29,212 nt of DNA from Ectocarpus siliculosus (lineage: Eukaryota; Sar; Phaeophyceae; Ectocarpales; Ectocarpaceae): contig FN649742.1 in assembly GCA_000310025.1 (NCBI GenBank), forward strand, positions 4,413,795 to 4,443,006. Reading direction: 5' to 3'. The position numbers were made by a program, and so were the translations under genes. Positions 22 to 28,425 of this stretch are shown here, one piece after another (the stretch's first letter is position 1; each line of letters starts with the position of its first letter). The notes beneath the pieces are model-generated. The model was not told where the DNA came from. It was given only the letters and a program-made list of their open reading frames with translations, and ran no database searches.

Positions 22-3000
22 TAGTCGCTTGTTGGGGGCGCAGGACCTCTCATCCGGTGTATGGAGAAGACACAGTCGAAGGCTTGTTGTCAACAGCATG
101 CTTGTGAGCAAGTGCACGTTTGTTTTCGTTTGTTCCGCAACGTTTGTTTTACCCTCCGCTACTACTGCCCACCAGGCACGTCATGCGCACCTCCAGGGAG
201 GGGGTTTAGGGGGGTACTTTTACGAAGGGAAACTTATTTGTGTGTTAAGTCTTGGTGTTGCTTTCGTGTGGATGCTGGCGTTGAGCAACACGGCCAATGT
301 TAAATTGTTGGGGTTGTGCCAGAGATGTTAGCGCCATATCGTTGTTCGTGAACGCGCGGTTCCGCTCGTGTGTATTGTAGGGCGCGCCCAAACACACAAG
401 GGCGTGCGTGCTCTGCTGAGCGTCGACGACGCTTGTTTGTTGCCAAGAGCTGGTGGTGTTTGTTTCTGTTTGTTCGTAGCTGTGCTGTTCAGCGTTGTCT
501 TGTCTTTTGCCTTCTAGCGTAGCACCACTCCCTCACAGAGAGCTAGCTCGTCTTGTGTGTCGCTTCCGTCTTTGCACGGGCGGCAAGCGGACGGATTTAT
601 ATTGATTGCAAGGACTCCTTTAAGAAAAGGGTTGGAGATATACGTATGCTCCACGGTTGATGATAATTTACGTCAGCATGCATACCTCCTTTCAACGATG
701 CCATAGATTGGCAGCGCCGGCAGGGTAGGGCGGGGCGAGAAGAGTATCGCCCTCTTTCTGGTGACCGGCGTTGTACGTCTTTGGAGCATCGACGGAGCGG
801 CCAAGAAGAGCTACATTAGGATGGCCGCGATTTCCTTGGAAAACCCGATCATTCTTTGTGGCCACACGAGATGCGGGGGGGGGGGGCAGGGACAAGAGGA
901 ACACGCACGCGTGCACCACGCCTGTTCCGCCAGTTGTGCGTCGATCGTTTAGCGGAGAGGGGATGGGGGGCTGACTGGCGAAATTCCCTAAACGAAATGA
1001 TTCGATAGCACACGTGGTCTGAGGTTTTCCGGAAAGAACAGAGGCGAATCGGGTTCTAAAAACTGTTTGCTAGTGACAAGGAGAAGGAGTTGTATGGGGA
1101 GGAGGCATCCGTGTGAAGAATACGGTTCGCGTGTCCCCCCACGGGTCGACCGGGTTGTGTGTATGGTCCTGATAGTTTTCGTTGCCGATGCGTTAGGTTG
1201 ATGTTGCAAGGGCAGGTCATGTAGAGGGTAACTATTTTTTTAATTGTTTGTGCGTAGTATGGCGATAAAGCCCTCATTTCAGACAATGACGTACATAGTT
1301 CCGCTTGACTACAGAGAAAGGAGTCGTATCTCTGTGAAGAAACAATGTACAGGAAGTTGGAAAAAGTAGGGACCATGATCAAGGGTGACGTGAGAGGATC
1401 TTCTTCGCTCGAGATATTTCTTGAATCGGCTGGGAAGGTTCTATCAGGAATGAATGTGGCACGTGTGTTATTGTTGGCAACGTCCTTGGATTATATAGGA
1501 GAAAAAGATCAAATTGAAGGCGATGATGCCCGTTGCGCAATAACAACAGTAACGTCGGCGGCCGGCACTAATTCGTAAATTGCCTTTAACGGATGTGGTA
1601 CAGTTTAAGTGAGTGGGGGTTGCAGCATGGCGGAATTTCTCAAAGCAACCAAAGTATTGAGTTTCGACGGGGCTTTTTTGGGTCTCTTCCTTGAAAGTAG
1701 CACGAACACAGCAGCAAATGATGCTATATATGCCGTTCACGCCAACCTTGAAGGTGCGGTTGCCTTGAAGTGCTGCCCGTCCCTCCACTTCCATGATAAG
1801 AACGAAGGTGCAACCAGGCGGGCCAAGATACCGGCACGACATCTAAACAACAAGGTTCGATCATACCGCCGCGGATTTTGTAAACCCCTGTGCGTTGTTG
1901 CACTGCATCTCCCTAAAGAAAAAATACTGTCAACAAAGGGTTGTGTCACACGTAACAAAAAAAAAATGTCGTTTGAAGAACACCTTCTTCTCAGCGAAGA
2001 CTCAGTTGATCAACAAGCAGGCTCAACTACTGTACGTCCAAAATACCAACCAGCAGAGGCCCCTCAACCCTCACCGGAAAAATCCAACACACACACCCTT
2101 CGAAGGAGGAAGTGTTACGTATGTCGAACCATGCTCTCTCTTCTTGAAGGCTGCGTATGTATATGTTCGAAGCAATACAATCACAACGTACGAACGTACA
2201 TCCTCTCACGACCAATGGGCGTCGTTCTACGGGATGGCGAGAGATAATCAATGCGTGCCTCGTGCTAATTCGATACAGACAAGCCTACGTCGAACCCAAT
2301 CATATCATCAGTAGAATAAAAACGCCGATGGCAATGCACTAAATAAATTAAATGATCGGTTTCGCTATCCACCGCCAACAACAACTCCGTTCACACTCCT
2401 CCTCCTCCTCCTGTAGTTTACACCGTAGGCCTGACTATAAAAAAACATTTAGCACCCGCCGTCCACAGTTTGCAATTGAAACATTAGCTCCGTTCCACGA
2501 AAAAAATTTGGTTAAATATTTAACCTTTTTGAGACAGCCTGTAAACGAGTGATGACACAAGACGGCGACTATGACAGACAGACAGGCCGGAGCTACCCCA
2601 TCACCAACAATCCATAATCTTAACAGCATGACGACGATGAACGAGACAAAAAGAACTAAAAAATTAATAATCATGATAGTGAAACTAGAATACACAACAC
2701 GGGCGATGGATTGATGTCAGAATGAGCGTCCGGACAAGCCTGTCCAAGGATGTACAAAAGCAAGCCTACAGTACTCCCCGTACACTTTGGTTGCGTACTA
2801 GCTATATGTGTGTAATCTATTGAACGCGGTCTCCGAAAAATGAACACCTAAACCAATAGTCGCGGCCTCATAACACGAACACCTACACTACTGAAATTCT
2901 TCAAGCCACAATTATTTATAGGCTGTGCTCAGTGTAAAAGAAAAGTCACGTACAGCGACTGCTTTGATACCTGACAAGGTCAGGAGGACGCATACGGCAA

Positions 3001-3264
3001 GTCCGCCAGGACTGAGACACGCACACACAACGAAACAACACCAGCTTTAATTTCGACGGAGCGCGGCGCCCAAAACCAACAGCTAAAAGTCTCTCTCGTG
3101 TTGTTCGCGTGTTTCCCCCCTCGACATCACGCCCTTTTCTGATACACGCACATTACATGACTCATGTTAATATGTTCCCGAATGAATCGACATCAAGTTC
3201 CCAATCCGACCCTACAGCCAAGTTAGCCCTCATGCTGTAACCCCCCCCCCCCCGCCCGCCGACC

Positions 3265-3336
3265 TGTGATGTTCGGTCTCTCTGTCCCAACTTAGGCGCG
3301 TCATTAATGACTTAGAGACCAAAGCCGAGCATCACA
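3265..3336. repeat. Imperfect hairpin around GTCATTAATGAC
   Basis: TGTGATGTTCGGTCTCT at 3265-3281 pairs with 3314-3336 (its reverse complement carries one mismatch and six extra bases). The loop contains the perfect 12-bp palindrome GTCATTAATGAC at 3300-3311. It lies directly after a 13-base C run, outside any gene. Confidence 0.6.
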
Positions 3337-3898
3337 TTGTAATATTAGCGTGCACCCCCCAAGAATATCAAAACTGGGCGTAAATTAGTTTTGCCCCAAA
3401 AGCAAGCATCAGTGGACGAAGTGTTGTGATCCACGTCCATTTTCATGCAACGTCTACAACTGCTATTGATGTTGTCTCTAGAATCAAAGCAGCTTGCACT
3501 ACGGTACACTGCGGTGATTCGTTGGCAACAGGAGGGCTTCCCGCGGTGGACACGTCAACCGCATTGCACCACAGAAGAAACGAAAGACAAAATAGACGTG
3601 CGTGCAGTCACACCGACGTGCCGACTGTATACGCATGGTGCACGCATGCGTGATATCGACAACGACAGCGAAAAAACAAGATGAAATGCAGATGACTAGA
3701 AGAGAAGAACAACAAAAGAAAAAACACACGCACTTATAACAACAGAAGCACCTCCTACTGCCCCGGGTCTCGCTGATCGATCTACAACGAGCAATCCCCG
3801 TCGACACAGCAGAACAATTCTCACCACCCACACAGACCAACGAAAAACCTAAACGTCACCTTTCCCCCGGCCCAAGAACAGGAAGAGAACATGAAGCA

Positions 3899-3923
3899 CA
3901 CCACCACCACCACCACCACCACT
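3899..3923 (+). repeat. (CAC)n microsatellite
   Basis: About eight CAC units in a stretch without a recognisable gene. Confidence 0.9.
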
Positions 3924-4111
3924 CACGCGCGGCCGCTGCGGACAGGCGACGCGCCTTCTCCTGGAGAAATGCTGCAGACAGACAGACCTCCACACGTCGT
4001 GCTCGCGTTCACGCTCCTCACATGAACGCGAAAGGGCGCCTTTACAGCAACACCCAACGAACAGGACGATCTCTATGGCCCAATCAAGACGACAAATTTC
4101 AACAGTAGGTC

Positions 4112-4523
4112 TTATTCTTTGCTCCCCCCCCCCCCCCCCCCCCGAATTACCCCCATCCGGAGACCCCCGCTACCATCCCGTTGAAACGGCCACTGGTGAG
4201 CGAACAGCCCGACCGCCACGGGGGGCCTCTTCTCCTCCCTCCCCTCGCCTCCGAAGCCATCACCACCCTCTCGCTGGTGCTGCGCGCTGGCCGCGTCCAA
4301 CTGCTGAACCATCGGTGCCCACGACGTGGGTGCCCAGGGACTTGTCGGTCCCGCTCCTCCTGGAGATGAACCGGAGGACCTCCTTCGGCAGTGGTGGTAG
4401 CTGCTCGAGCTGGCGGTGCTGCTGCCGCCGCGCTGGCCGCCCCCTTGGTCGCCGTAGGCCGACGACGACGACGACGCGACGGTATCGAACGGGGCACGCG
4501 CGACGGAACGGTTCGACGGGGGT

Positions 4524-4554
<31 letters not shown>

Positions 4555-5810
4555 TCGCAGAAGAGTAAGCGCCCCTTCCGCTCCCTACCGCTCCCACATA
4601 CCGTCGGGAGGAAGGCGGCGTCGACATCAGTATGCCTCAATTTGCGCCCGGACGGCGGCCGCCGCCGCCGCCGCCGCCGCCGCCCCCCCCTCCCCCCGGT
4701 TGCTGCCGCGTGCCCGCGTGCGCCCACGATGCGGGGGACGCCGGGGCCGCTCTCCCCGCCGGTGACGACGCGGACGAGTAGACCACCCTCCTCGCGTACC
4801 TTCCACCGTGCCCCCCTGGCGGCGCTCTGGGCGGCTCGGCCGCGGGCGCGGCAGACGTGCGCTGGCGGCGGTCGGTGAAGGAGGAGCACCGTGGGGAGCG
4901 AGGGGGTGCGGCCTCCCGACGGTAGCACTGCGGCGACACCGGGGGGGCGTCCACGGCCACGCCGAAACCGTAGCTGTCGGAGAAGTCTGACGACGACGGT
5001 GAGGGGTAGGAACGGCTGCGCTGGTGGTGTGGCGTCCGGGGCTGGCCGTTCGAGTAGTAGCCTGGGGTACCGGCGTGCCACACGCACGAAAGCGCAAGTA
5101 GAAAAAATTACAGATTTTCTTGCTGCGCTCAGGTGAGCTGACTGTGCGGTTTGGCTGTACACACGTCGGAGCATCGTCGTCAGTTTCGGTGGTGGCCGTT
5201 TCATCTGTGTTACTATTATACACGTGTTTTGGTCGTGCTCCAAAACGCGTGATATTCTCTCGCGGAGGCCTTGAAATAAACTATCGTTTGGTCTGTCCTG
5301 TCTGTTCAAAGCGTTTCCGCTCATGCAGGAGGAGGTGTCGTCATGCTGTCAGCGGAAGAGCCTTCGCGTGTGACGACGCACCGACAGTGAACATGAAAAT
5401 CCTCTCTCGAAAGCGCACCAGAAAGACACTTGGATACAGTAGTTGCCTCCGCTTTTCCGATGTTTCTGCACAAATGACCATTGCAACCTCTCCCCCCCCG
5501 TTCCCTGCCGACTGTGAAACGTTTGGTTAGCCGGGATGCCCAACAAACCCATGGCGTACCCGGTTTGACACAGCAATGCAAGGATGATAACCAGCCTAAT
5601 GGGCCGGCGAAAACCCGGCGCATATCGCTCCGCCCCGGAAATGCAGAGTATGCGCTTCCAAGAGTACCCTCCCCCGCAAGATAACGGGTTCTAATCACTG
5701 CTCTCACCAGGGGGGTACCGCGTGGCAGGGGAAGACCAGTGCCTGGTGTGCCGGGAACCTCTCACGGGGGTGTTTCCGGTGCTGAGGTCCACGAAGGTAG
5801 GCAGGCGGCG
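4112..5810 (-). CDS. Ser/Gly/Pro-rich low-complexity protein, partial, with an in-frame stop
   Basis: The main exon reads from 5061 down to 4112. Its acceptor follows a T-rich tract ending accccag. Codons in this frame have very high G/C at third position. The protein has a YYSNGQPRTPHHQRSRSYPS start, Ser/Tyr/Pro-rich blocks, a Gly run, an Ala run and SSSSSAYGDQGGG-type sequence. One TGA at 4639-4637 interrupts it; the same frame continues without shift to the stop at 4112. An upstream exon probably ends at 5708 (donor CTG|GTGAGAG, phase 1, matching the phase-1 acceptor at 5061) and encodes RRLPTFVDLSTGNTPVRG; its 5' limit is uncertain (an acceptor at 5810 is possible). Function is not recognisable. 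The TGA may mean a sequencing error in a GC-rich tract, a pseudogene, or an earlier true end with the rest being 3' UTR. Confidence 0.4.
4124..4143 (+). repeat. Poly-C tract (20)
   Basis: Lies just inside the 3' end of the Ser/Gly-rich minus-strand frame, where it reads as Gly codons before the stop at 4112. Its length is likely unstable in sequencing and in nature. Confidence 0.95.
4658..4682 (-). repeat. GGC run encoding poly-Gly
   Basis: Together with the neighbouring C-rich 4683-4697 this encodes a run of Gly residues in the minus-strand frame, immediately upstream of the in-frame TGA at 4639-4637. Confidence 0.8.
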
Positions 5811-8466
5811 CTCACAGGGGGAGTGGGGCACCCGTCCGATAACCCCGCCGCACCGGGAGGAAAGAGACGTGTCTCGCGACGAAGGGCAGGAGCCACTGTC
5901 TTCACTCACGCTTCTCGCAATCCTTGAAGAAGAAGAGGAGAGGAGGTACAGAGGAAGTTACATACATGTGGAGATGTGATTTGGGTTTAGAGTGAGTTTG
6001 ACGATGTTTGCTGGGCCAGGGAGCGGAGAAAGGGGGCAGAGAGTGCCGCGAGGGTTGGTTCCAGGCAATGACGGTGGGATCAGTTGAAAGGACCGACGCG
6101 TGCCGCGTGCGAGTTGGTCAAGGGCCGTCGATTAGCTACAATACATTGGTGGAGATCAGTAGGTGACAACTGGCAACTGTAAAATAACACTGCTGTACTT
6201 TGATGGTACACTCACGCTTCATCGTCGAGCGTCGGGTGCCGTAGTTCTCCAAGCCCGTGAGCGAAGGCGCAGCTGCCCGCTGCGAGCAGCGTCATCGTTC
6301 AGGGGTATGCACACGGAACGAAGAACGAAGTGGTTAAACTAAGGCCATGGACCGGTGGAGCTCAACAACGTGGCGGGCGTTATTTTGAGGCGGTCGAAAC
6401 CGAACATCGTTACCCTGTTGGCTACACTGCAATGCTACAAGTCGAGAATCAATGTCTATGATGTACTGCCCCCTACTCGACCCTCTCCACGTTATTTTTG
6501 ACATCTTTTGAGGAAAAATGACGAAACTCCAACGACGTCGATCACCCCCAAACCCCGGCACCGGTACGGCTGTCTGTCTCGTGCTCGACGGGTGTGGTCA
6601 TGTTGACGAAATACGCGATTCCAGGGGTGGAAAAGAAGATGTACGAAACAACCAAGTCGAAGCTAATATTGTTCTACGCACAAGTTCTTCTTGCCGAACA
6701 ACAGCCAGTCGTAGTCAACATCATGCATCGTGTTGCTGCGCACAACCATGCTTGAAATTTTTGTCCTTTCGGAAACAAACGTGAAAATTCCAATGGCGCC
6801 TTTATTTCCGAGCAGGAGATGGTGGTAGGGTGTAAGACTCACCTCCGTACGGGCACGTTCCCGTCTGCCAGTGAAGGCAAATCTCCGTCTTATAGCAAAA
6901 AGGACAATCGCCCCGAGTGCACCATCAACGACGTGGCAGCAGCAGCAGCAGCAGCAGCAGGAGCAGCAGCAGTCAGTGGAGCAATGGCGTAGGAACTCAG
7001 ACGCAGAGACGTAAAGCGGGAAAAGGCCAGGCAAGAGAGACACACAGATAGAAAAAAAAAAGCCACTTCCGATTCGGGAGCTTTGATCGGGCGGCGGTGA
7101 TCGATGTAATCTACACATGTAGACTATGTCGTTGTTCGAGGTGACCAGCGTGGCCAGCAGGAGCTGACCAGCTTGCCCATTCTTTTCTGTGACCAGGCAT
7201 CCCACATCATTACCCAATATCTACTACCTCAGACTAGTGACCAACTGCGATTCGAGATCACACGGGTCCATTTTCCTCTCCTTGGGTCTTCTTTTGTAGT
7301 CTTGGTGGTGTCTGTTTATTGGAAGACCATGGCGATTTGCATGTTAGTGCTGTTTATCTGTACAGACTCTATTTAAGGTCTGACGCGGAGGCCCTCAAAT
7401 GGTGTACATGGGGAAATAACGAGAAATAATAACACAAGCCCTCAAGTATTCAGCAGTACTTTAACCGACCCCATCTTGCTTGTTTAAAAACACACCCAAC
7501 CCAACCTAGACTCCTAGACTAGTTACTGCGCAGCAAGGAATTTGAGTTCCGGCCGTAGATATTATTGTAGTTTCTAGCCTCTAGTCTATGCATGCATACG
7601 ACAATTTGCCTGTGCTCAATGGTTGAGACAGGGCAAGGCTTTTCGATCACGTTGTTGATGTTTCTGGGTGGGCCGGCTCTTTGTATCGCAAGGAGAGCCC
7701 GGCGACCCTCTTGTGCCGTGCCAACAAGCAAGTCAAAGGCCTAATAAACCATTTAGAACTGACTGCCGTTGTCGAATTTTGACTATTTACATAATAATTG
7801 TATTTTATCACAACACCAGCATCACTCACGAAGCAGTGCTACAACATCTATCAAGACAGCAATGCCGCGGCGGGATCAGAACGCGACCACTCTCTCTTAC
7901 ACCCATCTCGATCTCGCTGGCAAACGAACGGGTGTGCTACACACGTGCGTATGTGCGTATCTCGACCGGTGCTGCTGTGATGATGTGTGAGAACGACTGC
8001 ACGACCGCAAAAGATCTCGACAACTCGACAATTTCTTCTGATGATCGACCTCTTTTTTCTGTGGGCAATCCATTGTGGCACAAAACCAGAGACGGTAGAT
8101 AGCTACAGCAGTGCTGCAGTGCACGACCTCATCATGCTGGTAGAAGAAAGATCTTCCAGGTTACTGCCAGCCCAGCTAGGCAAGGACCCCCATACACGAC
8201 AGCGTACTGCTGTAGTGTGTGTGGAACTGGAGTACGGTGAGCAGCCTGCATCTTCTATCGATGTGGACAACGCACCAGCACACACACACGCTGAAGCAGA
8301 CAAGCAGACGGTAAAATTCTATCCATCTGTAGCTCTCCCGAACCAGTGTGCCAAAGCCCTGGCCACGAAGAGGACTTGTTCTAGAAATCCAAGCATACTG
8401 CTGGCACCAAAGGCAAACCAGCCAATGCAACGCCTCACGCCGCGATCTCGAGGCGGAGCCAAGAAC

Positions 8467-8916: not shown

Positions 8917-10071
8917 CTGCGTCGCGGAGATGGAACGAGAGGGATTGGAGCGCAAACACGGACGGCTAATCGGATCACGCCGCTTTGCTTGAAAAAAAAA
9001 AAATCACCCTCCGCTCAAGAACAAAAAAAAACTGAAAGATCCGGATAATTCAAAATCGGTGTGTGGTAGACTAACGTATGCATATGTATGTGCGCGCGTT
9101 GCGCAATCATTGATGCAATACGTATCTCAATCGTAGGTCTCGGAGGCCCAACTGCGGAAGACAATAACATACTGGATCGATAGGTAGTGCGATGTTGGAG
9201 AGCCTGCTGTTGTGTGTGTAGAAACAGGAGTAGACGACCTCCATATAAATATGCGTGTGCGTATGCTATGCAACAACAGCAAGAGTATTGCACAACCGTA
9301 TACCATACCCCCTGTCAACCATCAATTTTTCAGGTGCTGAAGAATACTTCTATTTTGGTGATTGACCAAAAATGAGTACGACGACAGAGAGACTACCCGT
9401 TCGACATAGACTATAACTACAGCAGTCGAAGGGGATGTGGGAACATCTAGTCTTTACAGTAAGGGGGAGAACAACCGGCTGGATACTGTGCATATTTTGG
9501 GTCTATTGAAGCCTATATACACTACATACACACTTTTGAAGTGTTAATTGTTGGCTGACTTGCTGTACGCAGACCTGCAGGAAAAGAGGGAACAAACAGC
9601 AGTTGCTAGAGCACGATGCGTTCGTACGATGGGTTTGTACGTTATTTTCAGAGCAATATCTGATACGTGGACTGGTTTCTTCATGTCACCGAACTTCCGA
9701 TGGCTGCATCATAAAGCCTCTCACGCTTCGAAAAGGGTTCGCGATCAAGATCCTGTCGTCTGCGTGTTATTCCTGGAACCGACGATCCATAGTAAGACCT
9801 GAAAATGGGGAGCATTCGTTGCCGAAGTTCACTGCCGCAGAGAACACAAGTCTTGTCTTGCAAACCAGACTACGCGCTGATCACTAATAGGTGGAAACAT
9901 GGTGAATACTCCTTTCTAGCGTCGAGCAACAAACAGCGATGCAACAGCCACGGAAGAAGAAGCGAGGCTCTTGAACAACTATCAGCGCACATGGGGTCTG
10001 TAGCCTACGCCCATGCGCGCAGCCCTCCAAAGGTAAACTCCCGCTTACATCCCGCGACCGCCCCGCCCCAG
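8917..10071. other. No supported gene
   Basis: No frame with coding character was found. Upstream exons of the 8916-8587 candidate (minus) and of the 10072-11028 candidate (plus) would both have to lie here if those genes are real. Confidence 0.45.
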
Positions 10072-12903: not shown

Positions 12904-15900
12904 ATGGAACTCCATAATTTCGCCGCATTCTTGGGCGAGGAGGAGAGCAACACCACGCCTCCCGCATCAGACAGCAGTGGGGTTGTTGTACCGTCCCACA
13001 CACGGCTCAGCATGGATGAAGTACAAGATGATGCGGTGACAGAATTTCTGAAAATTCTTGGCAAAGCTGAACACGAAGTCCGATCATTGCCTCAAACGAG
13101 TGCGGACTTCGAAACATGCAGCCTACGCTCAACGCTGTGCGGCCAGTTGGATGCCCAGCTAGGTGCAGCTGTGGACAAAGCCCTCGGTTCGCAAGAGCTT
13201 CGGCTCGATCCCGCCGATGGTGTTTGCCCTGATGGTATCAATAAGGTTGTGGCGCGGCTAGCGGCGTCTCCGCCTTTCGTCGGCGTGGTCAACAAGGCTC
13301 GCGAGGCGATTGAGCAAGCTGCAGAGGCTCAGCTGGCAGCAGCTACGACTCCTGTTGCCAACGCCACGGGTGACAGTGTTGCTGCGACGGGAGCAGCTGG
13401 AGTTGTTCTTCGTCGAAACGTGGATGCATTGTCAAGCTCCGACACGGAAAGAGAAGACATGCGCGTGAAGAAGAAGGCGGCGCGCAGGGATGATTGGGTG
13501 GGCATTTTCGACCTGTCCGGGGGGCTTGGGGCGGGCGGAGGAATTAGCCCTCGTGTGGATATCGAGGCCGCGCTAGGTCAACTGGAGACTGGGCTCGGGG
13601 GCTCAGGCAGCTCTACCACGAGCTCGGTCGAGGCCCTAGGCTTGCTGGCACAGGTGGGAGGGCAAAGCCGTGACGTCAAAAGCCGTTCAGTTCCACGTGT
13701 TTCTTTACCGCTACCAAAGCGGTTCTCTTTGCTCGAACTCATCACGCCTGCTTATTTCGAGTGTTAACTTACGTGCCTGCAACGCTGTTGGCATGGATGG
13801 CACCGCAATTCGTGCTTTCCTTGGGCAAAGCAAAGCCTCAACTATTGCTGACGGTCTACGCCCATTTCCCTTGCCATCTTCCTCAGGCCAATCCGGAGCT
13901 GTTTCAGTTTGGAAACCATTGGCCTCTCTTCCTGAAACTTGCTAAACGAGCTTTGGATAGCCCAGATCCGACAGTTCATGCGAAGGTGCGACGCCTGTGC
14001 AAACCAGAAGGACTGCAGTAGCGTTGTGCAAACTAGGGTAGGGGGGAGAGGCCTCCGGTGTTGTGACTGTTAACGGGAGGGAACTGGCGGAAGCCGGTGG
14101 GAGTCATCCACCACCCCACGCACGATGCAAGCCTTTGATAATATGGCCGTCTATTACCCCGTCGGTACGCAGCTCCCCCGCAAGCCCTCACTTAAGCTGC
14201 AACCGCCCCCCCTTCTCTGCCTCTTGGTCCTTGCCACACGCAACGACGACATAAATTTTTTACACGAGACCTCCACCCGTTACCATTGTTTCGCCTCGCG
14301 CAGGCTATGACCCTGCACTGGGTAATGTACGAGAAGTCCATGGGCATGTGCGCGGCGGACATGTGCGAGGGTGTCCTGGCTCACGCACGGGGGTACTTCT
14401 CGAACACGATCCACGTGCTCTCCGCCCCGTCGGCACACCGGCGCCACATGCTGGCTGGTGGAAAGGGCGCCGAAACGGCCGATGTGGGAACTGCCAATCT
14501 CATGGTCATCGGGGACTCAAAGCTGGCTTGCGCTGCGCGCATGTCAAGAGCTCTTCACGGCATGCTTGTGACGATCCACGAGGTACTTTTTCCCTTTAAC
14601 TTTGTTTTTTTTTTATGCCTTGAGGAAGATGCTCACAAGCCCATATTTTGTGTGTTGGCAGGGGGTCTTGGGCCTATGGTCTGTCGCCGTTGCAGCTATG
14701 GCGTTTTGCCCGTTGCGACGAAATTCGTATCTGTTTTATCTTGCGGGGCATTTCAACCGTTCGAGTGGTGTGCGAGTGCAGACCTTACACTCGACGATGA
14801 GATTGTACCATCCCGCAACACCCCACGCTTGTGTCTTCTTGGCGGTTTTCCTGTCGGGCCAAATGATGCAACACCGGCAACACCGTAGCACTTTCTTGAC
14901 ATTTCCCGATGTAGAACCTGACGACAAATTTGTTTGTTGGTCTTTCCTTCCCCGACAGACGTTCCAACATCTGCCGGAGCGGCGCGTTTGGAGCATTGTC
15001 AGTTCCTTCTTTTCTCTATTAGGCGATACTGTCGCTTCCTTGGAAGGGGCGCCAGGCGATCCAACAGGTTCGGGCATGATCGACTGCGATTCTGATGTCA
15101 ATCCTGATTGTGTCGAGGAGGGCGGAAATAGTAACGGGTGTGACTACGCTGCCCCTTTGCCAGATCGGGTGTCGTATCAGCCCGAGGGGATCGCATCTAC
15201 CTCTACGGTCCTCATGTCGGCGCACTTCCTCGCCGTTGTTGGCCGAGTCGATGATTGGCTGCCAGCTTGGCTTAGGTCCTTGCCCACCGGGCAGCTCGTG
15301 CGGGCGGTAAACGACGCGGGCCTTGTGGAAGCAATGACCCGCAGGTGCAAGTCGCAAGGGCGGATTCCCTTCTGCTCCAGAAATATTTGCCAAAGACCAT
15401 CCGGCTCCGACGCTGACGTTGCCGCTGCCGTTGCGTCAAACGGTACCCGTGGTACCGCCGGCCCCACCGCACCCGAGTCGGCGCCGCCGGAAAGTTGTCA
15501 GCCCAAGGCTGCTGTTGTGAGACACCGTCTCAGCGTAAGCGCTGGTTCCTCGGGTACCTTTTCTTCGGCCGGTTCGGCGGCGCCCCTGGGCCGTGCCCTT
15601 TGGCTCTCGGCCGCAGAGCTAGAACGATCGCTCCTGTTACAGTCAGTCTCCTTTCTCGGAATTCTCGCCACGCACTGCCGTGGAATATTGCGGCCATGTC
15701 CACCGATCCCCGATGACGAGGACGGCAGCGAGGAACCGGTGCCGAGAGGAGAGCGAGAACGGGAAGCCATCGACGGCGGTGTCGATCGTGGCCTCGAGCA
15801 GGTGGAGGAAGTCCTGCAGGCGCTGGTGCAGTGTGCTTGGGATAGAGAGGAGCGGCGAACTGAGTCTGCAACAGGGGCGTCCTTGTTGTCGAGACGAGCA

Positions 15901-23400: not shown

Positions 23401-26400
23401 GAGTGGGACCGGAGAGCCAACAGATATGTGCAAAGTGCGGGAACAACACGCATGGGCCAGGGAAAGGCAGTGCACGGTTACGGACCTCAAGAGCGGTGGA
23501 TTGAAAGTCGACGAATATTAACATTCACTCAACAGCTATACTGAGGGGACAGTGAGGCGGGGCAATCGTGTGCGCACGAGCTCACGCCCTTCGTGCAAGA
23601 CGTATGGCACGACTTGGCAAACAGAGGTGGCGGGAGGTTTTGAAAACCGCGCATGCGTTCTCTCAATCGTGTGCACATTATTGCTCCTCGCCAGCAGAGG
23701 GTCTCGCCTCACCTCACGCTCCCGCTGCCTCTCCTCTTCCCGCTGGGCCTCTCGTTCTCCAAACTTGGCACGCTCTGCTTCCAAACCACGCGCCATCCTC
23801 TCTCGCTCTTCCACGAGGAGGAGCTCTGCAGCTTGGACGCGCTCCCTAGCAGCAGTTTCGCTAGCACCAGCGGTGGCGGCAGGCGCAGCACTTGACCCTG
23901 ATCGCTCTTCGCTGGGGCGACGCCGTCTATAGCTGTCGTTCCACGGACGGCGGCGGCCCCCTCGCCGGTCACCTCTGTAGGGGCGGTACTCCTCGTTTCC
24001 GCTGGATGACCCGTACTCCTCGCTCTCCCACCTCCCGCTCCAGCCGCGGCGAGAGGGATCTCGGCGGTCGTCGAAGCTCGCCCAACGCCGTCCGGGTGTA
24101 GACCGGACAGACAAGTCCGCGCGGCCTCTGTCGTCGCCGCCGCGGCCACCGTGCCTGTCGTTCCGGGACCAGGGCCTCCTCCCAGTCCGTGACCGCCGGC
24201 CGCTACCGCTCGGGTAGTCGCTGCTGCCGATCTCCACGTCTCCGTCGCTCCAGCACTCGGGTTCCGACTCCGCCTGTCCCCTCCGACCGCCACGGCCTCT
24301 ACTGCCCCCGCCTCGCCGACGGCCGGGGCATTGCTCCCAGTCTTCGTGAGCGCTAGACATTGCCGGCGTCACCCACTCGCCTCCGCCGCCGTCCAGCCGC
24401 CCTCTTTCGTGGTACTCGCGAACGGCTTCCTCGGCCGGGGACCAGGGGCGATCCCCGCCGCCTCCCCTCCGCCGAAAGAAGAACGGGGCCGGCTCAAACT
24501 CTCCAACACCGGGCGCGCCTCCAGCCATCGCACCGTCCGGTTGTCCCCATGATCCGTTCCACCTCCGGCCGTCTTCGCCGCCGCGTACCCGTCGGTGGTG
24601 CTCTTGTCCCGGCGATCCGGTCCACCCGGCACCAAAGTGCGTGGAACCGTGGAGGAGTTGGCCGGTGGGGTCGGTCCGCACGGCGTCGCGTTCGGCCGCT
24701 GCTGCCGCCGTGCTTGCGGCAGCGGCAGCGGCGGCGGCGGTGGCGGCAGCGGCCGCCGAAGCCGACGACGCCTCCGCTTCGACGTCGCAGAGCCGGATGG
24801 CCTCTATCGCGTCGCGAGAGCGCCGGAGGGCGGCCCTGAGCTCCTCCACCTGCCCGTCCAGGGCAGATCGCTCGCACTCTTCCTCCTCCGCGCGGTGCTC
24901 GGCACGATCTGCTTGTCGGTTGAGAGTCAAAACAGACAAACGTCGGCCGGTGTCGTCGTAGACACTCGATGCGAGGAAAGGAAGACGCGGAAGGGCACGC
25001 CAGGGGAAGGGCGGACCTATAGAAACGTGCCCGTTTTTTTTCGTACGTGCAGCTTTCGAGCACTTGTACCGACCGATGCCTTAAGCACTCAACTGTCCCG
25101 ACAAATTGTCCCAACCGTAGCATGCTGCCTTGTGATCCACGTCGACAGCAAGCCCACAAAAAACACGCACGAATCGCCCTGGTAGATGGGGAGGGGGGAA
25201 AGAACCAACGCCGCCACCCAGGCGAACAACCTTCCGTGTCCGAACCATCGCCGAATCAAACACGTCGCTTTCGCCTCCGGGATGCCAACAAAAAGAAAAA
25301 CGAGAGAAAAGTTGTCCCAACAACGATGCCGAGGCCCTGTGAGAGAAAAACACCCTTCCCTGCGCTATGGGTTTGCCGGCAACCGCCCCAAACAAACGCC
25401 AAACTACACCGCTCACGGAAAAAAAACAATTGACACCAATGTTCTGTTCTGACCTCGGTCTAGCTCGGCGCTCGAGAGAGCTTGCCTGAGCTCCGTGGCT
25501 TCAGCCTCCCACTGCCGCTCCCTCTCCCTGCAGACCGGCAGTACAGAAAGCCAGGCAAGATAGATTGAGGGGTGGGTAACTTGCTGGGCGGTTGGCGTCA
25601 GGGAACAGGCAGAAATAACGGCGGCAGTTACTAACGGATGTCAAAGACGACTCGTGGGAGCGTGCCCCCATGACCCGTGAGGGGAAAACAGAGTGGCCGT
25701 GGCGCTACCATTATATTTTGTACATTGTGTGGAACGAAAAGTGGACGGCCTCAGCAACCGACCGAAAAGATTCCGTCGTCGCGCAGCAAGAACAATCACC
25801 AGTAATATAGGCGGCGCCAGCTACACCATGCAGTTTCTATTCGCCATTTCCCCGTCTTCCTGCTCACCTCAGCCGGGTCGCCTCGGCCTTGAGGGCGTCC
25901 CTCTCCTCGGTCGCTTTCCGAAGACTCTTCGCTTGGCGAGCCCTCTCCTCTTCCATGGACGCCTCTAGCGATCGAACTCTCCCCTCTAGCTCTTGCCGCC
26001 CGAGACGCACGAACGCCCGGTCGCCCTCCACTGTCACCTCTCTGCCAGGGAAGAAAAACACAAAAAGAACAAAAAACGCCAATGTATTCAGGGCATGTTC
26101 GTCTTCGGGGGGCTAGATCTCTGCCGTGTTCTAGAGTGAAGACGGCGGCAGCAACAAAATCCGTGAGTGTTAACATCTCCACAATATCGTATCCCCATGC
26201 TCTTGCCTAGCCTAGGTTCCAAAGGCTGCTTGCTGGTGCTCTCCTTTCATGGCGAACAGTAACGAAGAACGCCACGAATTTACATGCATAGCAAGCCCCT
26301 TGCCTTCGCCGCTCCGCCTTGCACCGCTCGCTGGCCGTAAGCCCTATCCCCTGCTTGCTATATATCCGCACACAAACATAAAAGGGAAAACGACACAACA

Positions 26401-28425
26401 GGGTATACCCTGGTCGAAAAGCGACACACCTGGGTACACAGTCATTAACAGCAGTAAATGCATTCATATGATTGGTCAGCGCCCAATTTCACCCCGGTAC
26501 GTCCGAAAAGGAGCAGGGTATACCCTGCTGTGTCTACTTTTCTCACCAACTGCTGTACCCTGTTATCGGAAGTGTACCCTGACCTGACGGGAAATAAGAC
26601 CCATTCATCAATCATTTCCCCCGCAGGAATCTTCCCAACTCCTTTTCCTCTCCAACCATGGGGTACCAAACGGCGAATCTTCCCACCCAATAACAACCAT
26701 GGCAACGCGGCAGGAATCAGTTTCCGCCCCTGCCAAACAACACCAACCATTATTAACTCTTCCGCTCTAAATCAACAATGGCCGGGCACTACCCCAGCAC
26801 AGCAGTTGTTCCGTTTGGAAACATGCACACGCGCACAATACCCCGTGCACCACTGCTTGCTGCAGTCTATATGCGACATGCACGGGTCACGCTACGAAAG
26901 CGAGACCGATCCAGCATGGTTGACATGCACATATATATATTTATGCATGTATGTCCACAGCACTACACGGGTAACGTTGGGCGCCGCCACTCCCTCCTGC
27001 CTGTGCCGTGTGTGCGTGGGTGTGTTGTCTGTTGTGTCTCAATTGCGATGTGTTTCTTGCTTGAACTACTACTACTGCTGTAACAGCAGCGGTCGCGCTT
27101 ACCAGCCGACCAAGCCGACCAACCAATCAATGTATGTAGTAACAAGACGTCAGGCTTCAGCGGGATGAGCCGATGAAATACACCGCGAGCACAGGGAGGG
27201 TGATTGAGTTGGACGACACAGTCCTGCTGCCAGAGTTGTTAGCACTCGCTCCTCCTTCCATGATTGATGTCAAGGGCGTGCCTGTGTGTGGTGTTGCTGC
27301 CTCTCTCCTCCGCCCGCTCAGCGCAGCGCCACACATCATGGGCACATACATGCATATATATGCATGTCAACCATGCTGGATTGGTCTCGCTTTCGTAGCG
27401 TGACCCGTGCATGTCGCATATAGATAGACTGCAGCAAGCAGTGGTGCACGGGGTATTGTACACGTACGTGTGTGCATGTTTCCAAACGGAACAACTGCTG
27501 TGCTGGGGTAGTGCCCGGCCATTGTTGATTTAGAGCGGAAGAGTAGATGGTTGGTGCTGTTTGGCAGGGGCGGAAACTGATTCCTGCCGCGTTGCCATGG
27601 TTGTTGTTGGGTGGGAAGATTCGCCGTTTGGTACCCCATGGTTGGAGAGGAAAAGGAGTTGGGAAGATTCCTGCGGGGGAAATGATTGATGAATGGGTCT
27701 TATTTCCCGTCAGGTCAGGGTACACTTCCGAAAACAGGGTACAGTTGGTGAGAAAAGTAGACACAGCAGGGTATACCCTGCGCCTTTTCGGACGTACCGG
27801 GGTGAAATTGGGCGCTGACCAATCATATGAATGAATTTACTGCTGTTAATGACTGTGTACCCAGGTGTGTCGCTTTTCGACCAGGGTATACCCTGTTGTG
27901 TCGTTTTCCCAACATAAAACATGCAAAAAAAAAAAAACTTTAAGCAGGATCTGGGGTTCTTCGGTGCTCCTGTCGCCAAGAGTGGCACATGGCATGTAGC
28001 CCGCTTGCCTGCGCATCTGGTAGGCCTCCTTGTACACCGCCGCTTGCTCGGCCGCCCTCTCCGCTTCGGCCTCCGCCGCGGTGGCCCTCGCCTCCTGCGC
28101 CAGAGCGTCGCTCCTCGCTTTCTACGTCAAAAAAAAAAAAAGGTCCAACGGAGGAGCTACTAAACAACAAAGACTAGACGATGACTTTTTCGTCGGCAAA
28201 CGTTTTGCGAGGGCCGCACGGACCAGGGAAATCAATCGGAAACGTGTTAAGGGCACCAGAACGGCCGCGGAAGGTAGATATTCTGCAGTACTTGTGCTGC
28301 GTGGGTCCTCTTCGGCCAGGAGAAGGCGCAGACCTAGTGCTGTGTGCTGGTGTTCTCGTCGCCTCGTCAGCAGGAATCACTCTTGAAATTTCACGATAAA
28401 TCAACGGGGTATTGTCTGCTTCCAT
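20500..28425 (-). CDS. Long coiled-coil, Arg/Gly-rich low-complexity protein, 9 exons; function unknown
   Basis: Proposed exons in gene order: 28425-28186, 28121-28009, 26041-25868, 25527-25454, 24911-23713, 23350-22421, 21894-21578, 21053-20915, 20832-20500. They sum to 3519 bp, an exact multiple of three (1172 residues), with every junction phase-compatible. The start is the first in-frame ATG. Residues about 75-245 form one heptad-like charged helix continuous across five exons (for example ADEKKARSDALAQEA, RQELEGRVRSLEASMEEE, ELRQALSSAELDR). Then come a poly-Ala block, a long Gly/Arg/Asp/Trp-rich disordered region, a second coiled coil (about 545-665, rich in EERERMARGLE and EEEEEQRQTR type sequence), Gln runs, and an acidic end SDNDWF. 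Exons 2-7 are well supported; the first donor (AAA|GTCATC) and the last two exons are weaker. I recognise no catalytic domain. It converges on the TBC1D32-like gene with about 1.1 kb between stops. A MULE-like element occupies intron 2. Confidence 0.6.
21824..21846 (-). repeat. CAG run encoding poly-Gln in the coiled-coil gene
   Basis: CTG units on the plus strand lie within exon 7 (21894-21578) of the minus-strand gene and encode seven consecutive Gln residues after KIRQRR. Confidence 0.8.
26375..26383. repeat. Target-site duplication, left copy
   Basis: AACATAAAA immediately precedes the GGG terminus of the inverted-arm element and matches the nine bases that follow its other end. Confidence 0.88.
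26384..26954 (+). repeat. Left terminal inverted repeat (about 571 bp)
   Basis: This arm matches the reverse complement of 27344-27910. It contains two copies of the palindrome CAGGGTATACCCTG (26399-26412 and 26514-26527), plus partial GTACCC-type copies further in. The inner end is marked by ATGCATGTATGT at 26943-26954; beyond it the two sides stop matching. Confidence 0.85.
26955..27343. other. Unique centre of the MULE-like element, possible captured fragment
   Basis: These 389 bp are not shared between the arms. On the plus strand an ATG at 27173 opens a frame that stays open through the centre (to about 27340) and then runs into the right arm. The centre-encoded part has non-repetitive composition (begins MKYTASTGRVIELDD, later VKGVPVCGVAASLLRPLS) and follows a plausible acceptor, ggcttcag, at about 27161. 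This could be a piece of host exon picked up by the element, as Pack-MULEs do, or chance. I recognise no domain. Confidence 0.35.
27344..27910 (-). repeat. Right terminal inverted repeat (about 567 bp)
   Basis: This is the reverse-complement partner of the left arm. Palindromes CAGGGTATACCCTG at 27767-27780 and 27882-27895 lie at exactly the same distances from the outer end as their left-arm partners (15 and 130 bases), so the outer parts have had no net length change since insertion. Confidence 0.85.
27911..27919. repeat. Target-site duplication, right copy
   Basis: AACATAAAA immediately follows the CCC terminus and is identical to the left copy. The unoccupied site would contain a single copy. 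Confidence 0.88.

Follow-up and report, generated by a model that had tools for sequence, protein, structure and literature searches.

The window examined here, a 29,212-nucleotide stretch of the Ectocarpus siliculosus genome (contig FN649742.1, positions 4,413,795 to 4,443,006), carries a pair of long inverted arms around a short centre, and this raises the question of what kind of element the structure represents, how its form arose and how long it has been in place. The initial annotation had described a two-arm element with a 389-bp centre and a perfect 9-bp duplication, and this description is accurate for a foldback-shaped element of 1527 bp at 26384–27910 (Table 1). Its arms of ∼565 bp each are 95–97% identical depending on gap treatment (96.8% across 560 ungapped columns; 95.1–95.6% with gaps counted when blastn aligns 26384–26945 with 27345–27910), and their terminal 60 bp do not differ at all. 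A Pfam scan of four of the 22 open reading frames of at least 40 aa that overlap the element, the 236-aa frame included, gave no match at E 0.05. The element is very probably a non-autonomous Mutator-like element (MULE) with long terminal inverted repeats (TIRs), a deletion derivative of a ∼10-kb MULE like the copy called L002 below, using transposase supplied in trans. Elsewhere in the window, a 1470-aa open frame at 14602–19014 matches the Broad-minded Rab TBC domain (PF23440; E=4.4e-9) and is probably a host gene.

Table 1. Positions of the parts of the foldback-shaped element in the window
Feature	Position	Strand	Remarks
Left target-site duplication AACATAAAA	26375..26383	.	Exact match to 27911–27919
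Left inverted arm (terminal inverted repeat)	26384..26950	+	Inverted match to 27340–27910, last few bases fraying
Outer 70 bp, start GGGAAAACGACACAACAGGGTATACCCTGG, most conserved part	26384..26453	+	97–100% per 10-bp bin
Inner inverted copy of terminal unit (CAGGGTATACCCTGCTGTGTC), putative transposase-binding site	26514..26534	-	Unit GACACANCAGGGTATACCCTG on minus strand
Internal deletion junction	26953..26954	.	L002-left sequence through 26953, then L002-right; seen in 25/37 elements
Geometric centre (389 bp), without recognised gene	26951..27339	.	From 26954 matches L002 ∼9004–9387
Right inverted arm	27340..27910	-	Inverted match to left arm
Right target-site duplication AACATAAAA	27911..27919	.	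Exact match to left copy

Across the 189-Mb genome, 137 places match the 29-bp terminus with up to three mismatches (69 forward and 68 reverse), whereas the reversed pattern used as a control is absent from both strands. Thirty-nine two-ended elements were read, the window copy and 38 from fetched loci; L038 was dropped (its left end is absent within five mismatches), and the pair C16:2609051–2610649 and most unpaired ends lie outside this set. Two of the 39, L004b and L019, could not be oriented, and 24 of the other 37 measure 1480–1560 bp, which exceeds the usual MITE range. Among viral contigs there is no exact match to a 27-base terminus, and the transposase query found no relative among viral sequences; a looser 19-base pattern matched four prokaryotic contigs, which are taken as chance matches.

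The initial annotation had proposed to look for other copies flanked by different 9-bp duplications, and these were found, at AT-rich targets. The duplication is exact in 25 of the 39 elements (in four of these, L013, L027, L028 and L031, it consists solely of A or T and carries little information), has one mismatch in five and at least two in nine. When left and right flanks of different elements were paired (38 elements; the fetched left flank of L003 is too short), at least eight of nine positions agree in 29 of 1406 pairs, versus 30 of 39 true pairs. With other assumed lengths, at most one mismatch is seen in 7/39 elements at 8 bp and in 3/39 at 10 bp. The nine left-flanking bases hold zero to three G/C per element, versus ∼55% G+C in the window. 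Empty sites are present for two other copies: L024 has two paralogous ones within L003, each with a single target copy that is 8/9 identical, and L039 has paralogous ones in L007 and L008 with a target identity of 6/9 (our count). The corresponding search for the window copy returned just its own two flanks. In L035 and L037, two of the nine elements in which the duplication fails, the flanks appear to be mutually inverted rather than direct, possibly from recombination between copies.

One long copy has the same end sequence as the window element (L002; C27:4263943–4273837, 9895 bp). It is flanked on both sides by the 9-bp duplication AAACAAATT, and its ∼660 bp arms are 98.6% identical over 665 columns. 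The frame at L002:3289–3747 matches the PF10551 MULE domain over profile positions 2–99 of 99 (E=5.8e-12; 46.3 bits versus a cut-off of 27.6), so that the search proposed in the initial annotation, for a long copy sharing these termini and encoding a MULE transposase, leads to L002 and its transposase domain. A PF00872 match falls marginally below its cut-off. Of the D-D-E triad and zinc finger (SWIM or CCHC) of MULE transposase genes, two candidate D positions lie within the PF10551 match; later frames, which have no Pfam match, hold a putative E (NSAESS) and a stretch resembling SWIM, both picked out by eye. Self-comparison of L002 found no direct repeats at E 1e-10, a short three-fold repeat (VKPLELR) lies in one translated frame near 7850, and the eight frames scanned for a PHD finger gave no match.

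A genome search with the L002 protein returned four matches, L002 itself, a copy on C24 (82%) and two distant ones (30% and 38%), so that close coding matches number only two. The C24 copy aligns to L002 825–8870; three stop codons interrupt its N-terminal frame and one interrupts frame 5265. It could not be tied to the termini of this family, as an N run covers the left end and the right end is missing. In the three frames taken as exons, dN/dS between L002 and C24 is 0.40 (N-terminal), 0.64 (MULE) and 0.54 (frame 4175–4684); six other frames give 0.48, 0.51, 0.58, 0.91, 0.91 and 3.05, one of the two values of 0.91 being that of the SWIM-like frame. Constraint on these coding frames appears weak at best. 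Two other large elements, L001 (8.1 kb) and L003 (10 kb), were rejected as coding copies on the ground that they do not match L002 701–9000; their length apparently comes from other insertions into short elements, and L002 is the sole parent-type copy among the elements read.

Insertions of other kinds were seen within copies of this family. L001:1334–3626, inside a MULE copy, has split direct repeats of 269 and 238 bp that are 99% identical, and frames between them, which have no Pfam match, resemble by eye a tyrosine recombinase of the kind found in DIRS/Ngaro elements. Transposon-like inserts are also nested in short MULE copies at L005:832–1623 and L006:1239–2031, with inverted ends GGGTCTGTCTTAACGAAGAAATC and ACGTGTTTGCGCA, respectively, the latter with a CATTG duplication.

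Relative to the coding L002, the window element keeps both ends and has lost the interior, and it is approximately L002 minus a single internal stretch of ∼8.4 kb. By blastn, element positions 1–567 match L002 51–610 and positions 573–1527 match L002 9004–9945; the left arm is 94% identical to the L002 left end, the sequence from 26954 onward is L002 right interior followed by inner right arm, and L002 701–9000 finds nothing in the window at E 1e-5. At the junction ...GCATGTATG is joined to GACACAGCACTACACGG..., and with small changes allowed this join is present in 25 of the 37 oriented elements (with a shorter left side in L013), which suggests that a single founding deletion produced the short form. 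The 12 without the full junction are L002, which has the right half only, and 11 that lack the motif; five of the latter (L010, L023, L032, L034 and L035) have a common, different-looking join that would reflect either a separate deletion event or additional loss from the first deleted form. TCC replaces GGA at the junction in the window copy, L006, L014, L016, L020 and L036. The window element had been put forward as a family founder; it can serve as the type copy, and the source would be a long element like L002.

Conservation of the ends was measured against the window element in 10-bp bins for 15 selected elements (30 ends). Identity is 97–100% per bin over the first 70 bases, of which the first 29 bp had served to pick the copies, and falls to 60% at 161–170. 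The unit GACACANCAGGGTATACCCTG lies at position 9 and again, inverted, at position 131 in both arms; identity is 94% at 131–140 and 81% at 141–150 (the second half of the inner unit), 92–93% at two TGTACCCTG boxes, and still 94–96% in the bins 101–110, 151–160 and 201–210, which have no box. This pattern is at most suggestive of transposase binding at the terminal and inner units.

The short form probably arose and spread as follows. A single deletion would have removed ∼8.4 kb from the interior of a ∼10-kb MULE, represented by L002, and the product, having kept both ends, would have remained a substrate for the MULE transposase. Acting in trans from a coding copy that was presumably functional during the spread, this protein would bind the conserved outer block and perhaps the inner inverted unit at position 131 and cut at the GGG...CCC ends; insertion at AT-rich targets with a staggered cut of 9 bp would account for the 9-bp duplications. 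Multiplication of this deleted form would have followed, the window copy being a young insertion in a sub-lineage with L016, L036, L020 and L014.

The genome also contains another MULE lineage, to which 25 of the 45 genomic PF10551 matches belong; these score almost the same and share an open frame of 233 aa. One copy, L042 (G000:C17:1757000–1764000, element ∼742–6792), has termini GGGCGCGAATATTTG, inverted repeats of ∼121 bp (∼117–121 bp in L042 and L043) and the 9-bp duplication CTTTTTTTC. The L042 lineage may have been recently active.

Assignment to the MULE superfamily rests on the MULE domain between the same termini in L002, a duplication in the 9–11-bp range and long TIRs; the MULE-like reading of the initial annotation is thereby supported, also by the copies at differing 9-bp sites. 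The termini by themselves are not diagnostic, and 8–9-bp duplications occur outside MULEs too, e.g., in Merlin, P or hAT elements, so that a foldback element or MITE of another superfamily might resemble a MULE by chance; this is nevertheless very unlikely, as L002 joins the same ends and duplication length to a nearly complete MULE domain, and L042, another MULE copy, likewise has a 9-bp duplication. It is also unlikely that the ends are served by a different MULE of this genome instead of L002-like elements. The 233-aa-frame lineage would be one such provider, being far more numerous and generating, in L042, a duplication of the same length, but in the two copies of that lineage that were compared (L042 and L043) the termini share just GGG with those of the window family, and neither aligns to L002 by blastn at E 1e-3. 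Any single locus could conceivably be an assembly artefact or a local inverted duplication, a reading with nothing else in its favour here; copies on many contigs with different flanks and matching duplications, together with the empty sites of two of them, reduce its probability to almost nil.

Long-TIR MULEs and their internally deleted non-autonomous forms are best known from plants. In PMC3310237, long-TIR MULEs are described as having 9–11-bp duplications and TIRs typically of 100–500 bp; the window family resembles them in its duplications, the MULE domain of its coding partner and its internal deletion derivative, and differs in its slightly longer arms (∼565 bp) and in a short form that is nearly all arm. 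Tm1 of root-knot nematodes, a Mutator/Foldback family according to PMC3169594, has 8–10-bp (mostly 9-bp) duplications in 45/53 cases, arms averaging 93% identity within an element, and both MITE-like members and members coding for a Mutator-type transposase. The foldback-like inverted repeats, ∼9-bp duplications and combination of short and coding members are common to both families; they differ in that the Tm1 arms consist largely of 13–15-bp tandem repeats in variable number, which the window-family arms do not. The outer motifs of Tm1 are asymmetric and its targets lack a clear consensus, whereas this family has symmetric ends and AT-rich targets. The "foldback" label is therefore apt for shape and not for structure: the window element does not have the tandem short-repeat arms of FB or Tm1, and the only repeats in the region are a 24-nt motif in five scattered copies and an AT-rich 23-nt repeat present twice. 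Rehavkus, as presented in PMC6446971, has a minisatellite before its 3′ TIR and a PHD finger; it shares long TIRs and a related catalytic domain with this family, whereas the self-comparison of L002 and its eight scanned frames showed neither minisatellite nor PHD finger. The words foldback, brown alga and Ectocarpus have no match in the text of PMC6446971. Searches of the literature on Mutator, foldback and MITE elements and on algae yielded no family identifiable with this one, which, as far as those searches extend, is a new family of a known kind; it may already be listed in a repeat library such as Repbase.

The initial annotation took the small differences between the arms to mean that the insertion is not very recent, and this argument fails. 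The two arms of the window copy differ by 19 substitutions (gaps are excluded from these counts), of which 16 are identical in L016, which is inserted elsewhere and has an exact duplication of its own. Eight of the 16 fall within the final 14 bases, where arm pairing breaks down; with those bases excluded, 8 of 11 are still common to L016. L016 is the nearest of 24 full-length copies to the window copy (99.48%), followed by L036 (99.15%), L020 (99.01%) and L014 (98.88%). In the whole element the window copy differs from the commonest letter at 17 positions, and among 21 close copies just four substitutions are private to it. Most of the arm differences therefore go back to the source, and dating by arm divergence was rejected; with most arm substitutions shared and only four private, the insertion looks young.

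The short copies could also act on their parent. Read-through of a foldback copy would give a ∼560-bp hairpin RNA matching the arms of L002, within which the L002 promoter probably lies, and small RNAs made from it might silence the parent; we consider this improbable, though if true it would explain the many short copies beside two coding ones. PMC3440606 describes a comparable case, Mu killer of maize, an inverted arrangement in which Mutator terminal sequence is joined by a portion of the transposase gene. The window element likewise has an inverted arrangement with terminal sequence that could give hairpin RNA; unlike Mu killer it has no match in L002 beyond the end regions.

A family is thus bounded in one eukaryotic genome by a parent-type coding copy, a deletion junction, short offspring, target duplications and empty sites, which eases annotation and tests of trans-mobilisation. 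It also illustrates that the arm divergence of a foldback-shaped element can be inherited from its source and is then unsuitable for dating the insertion.
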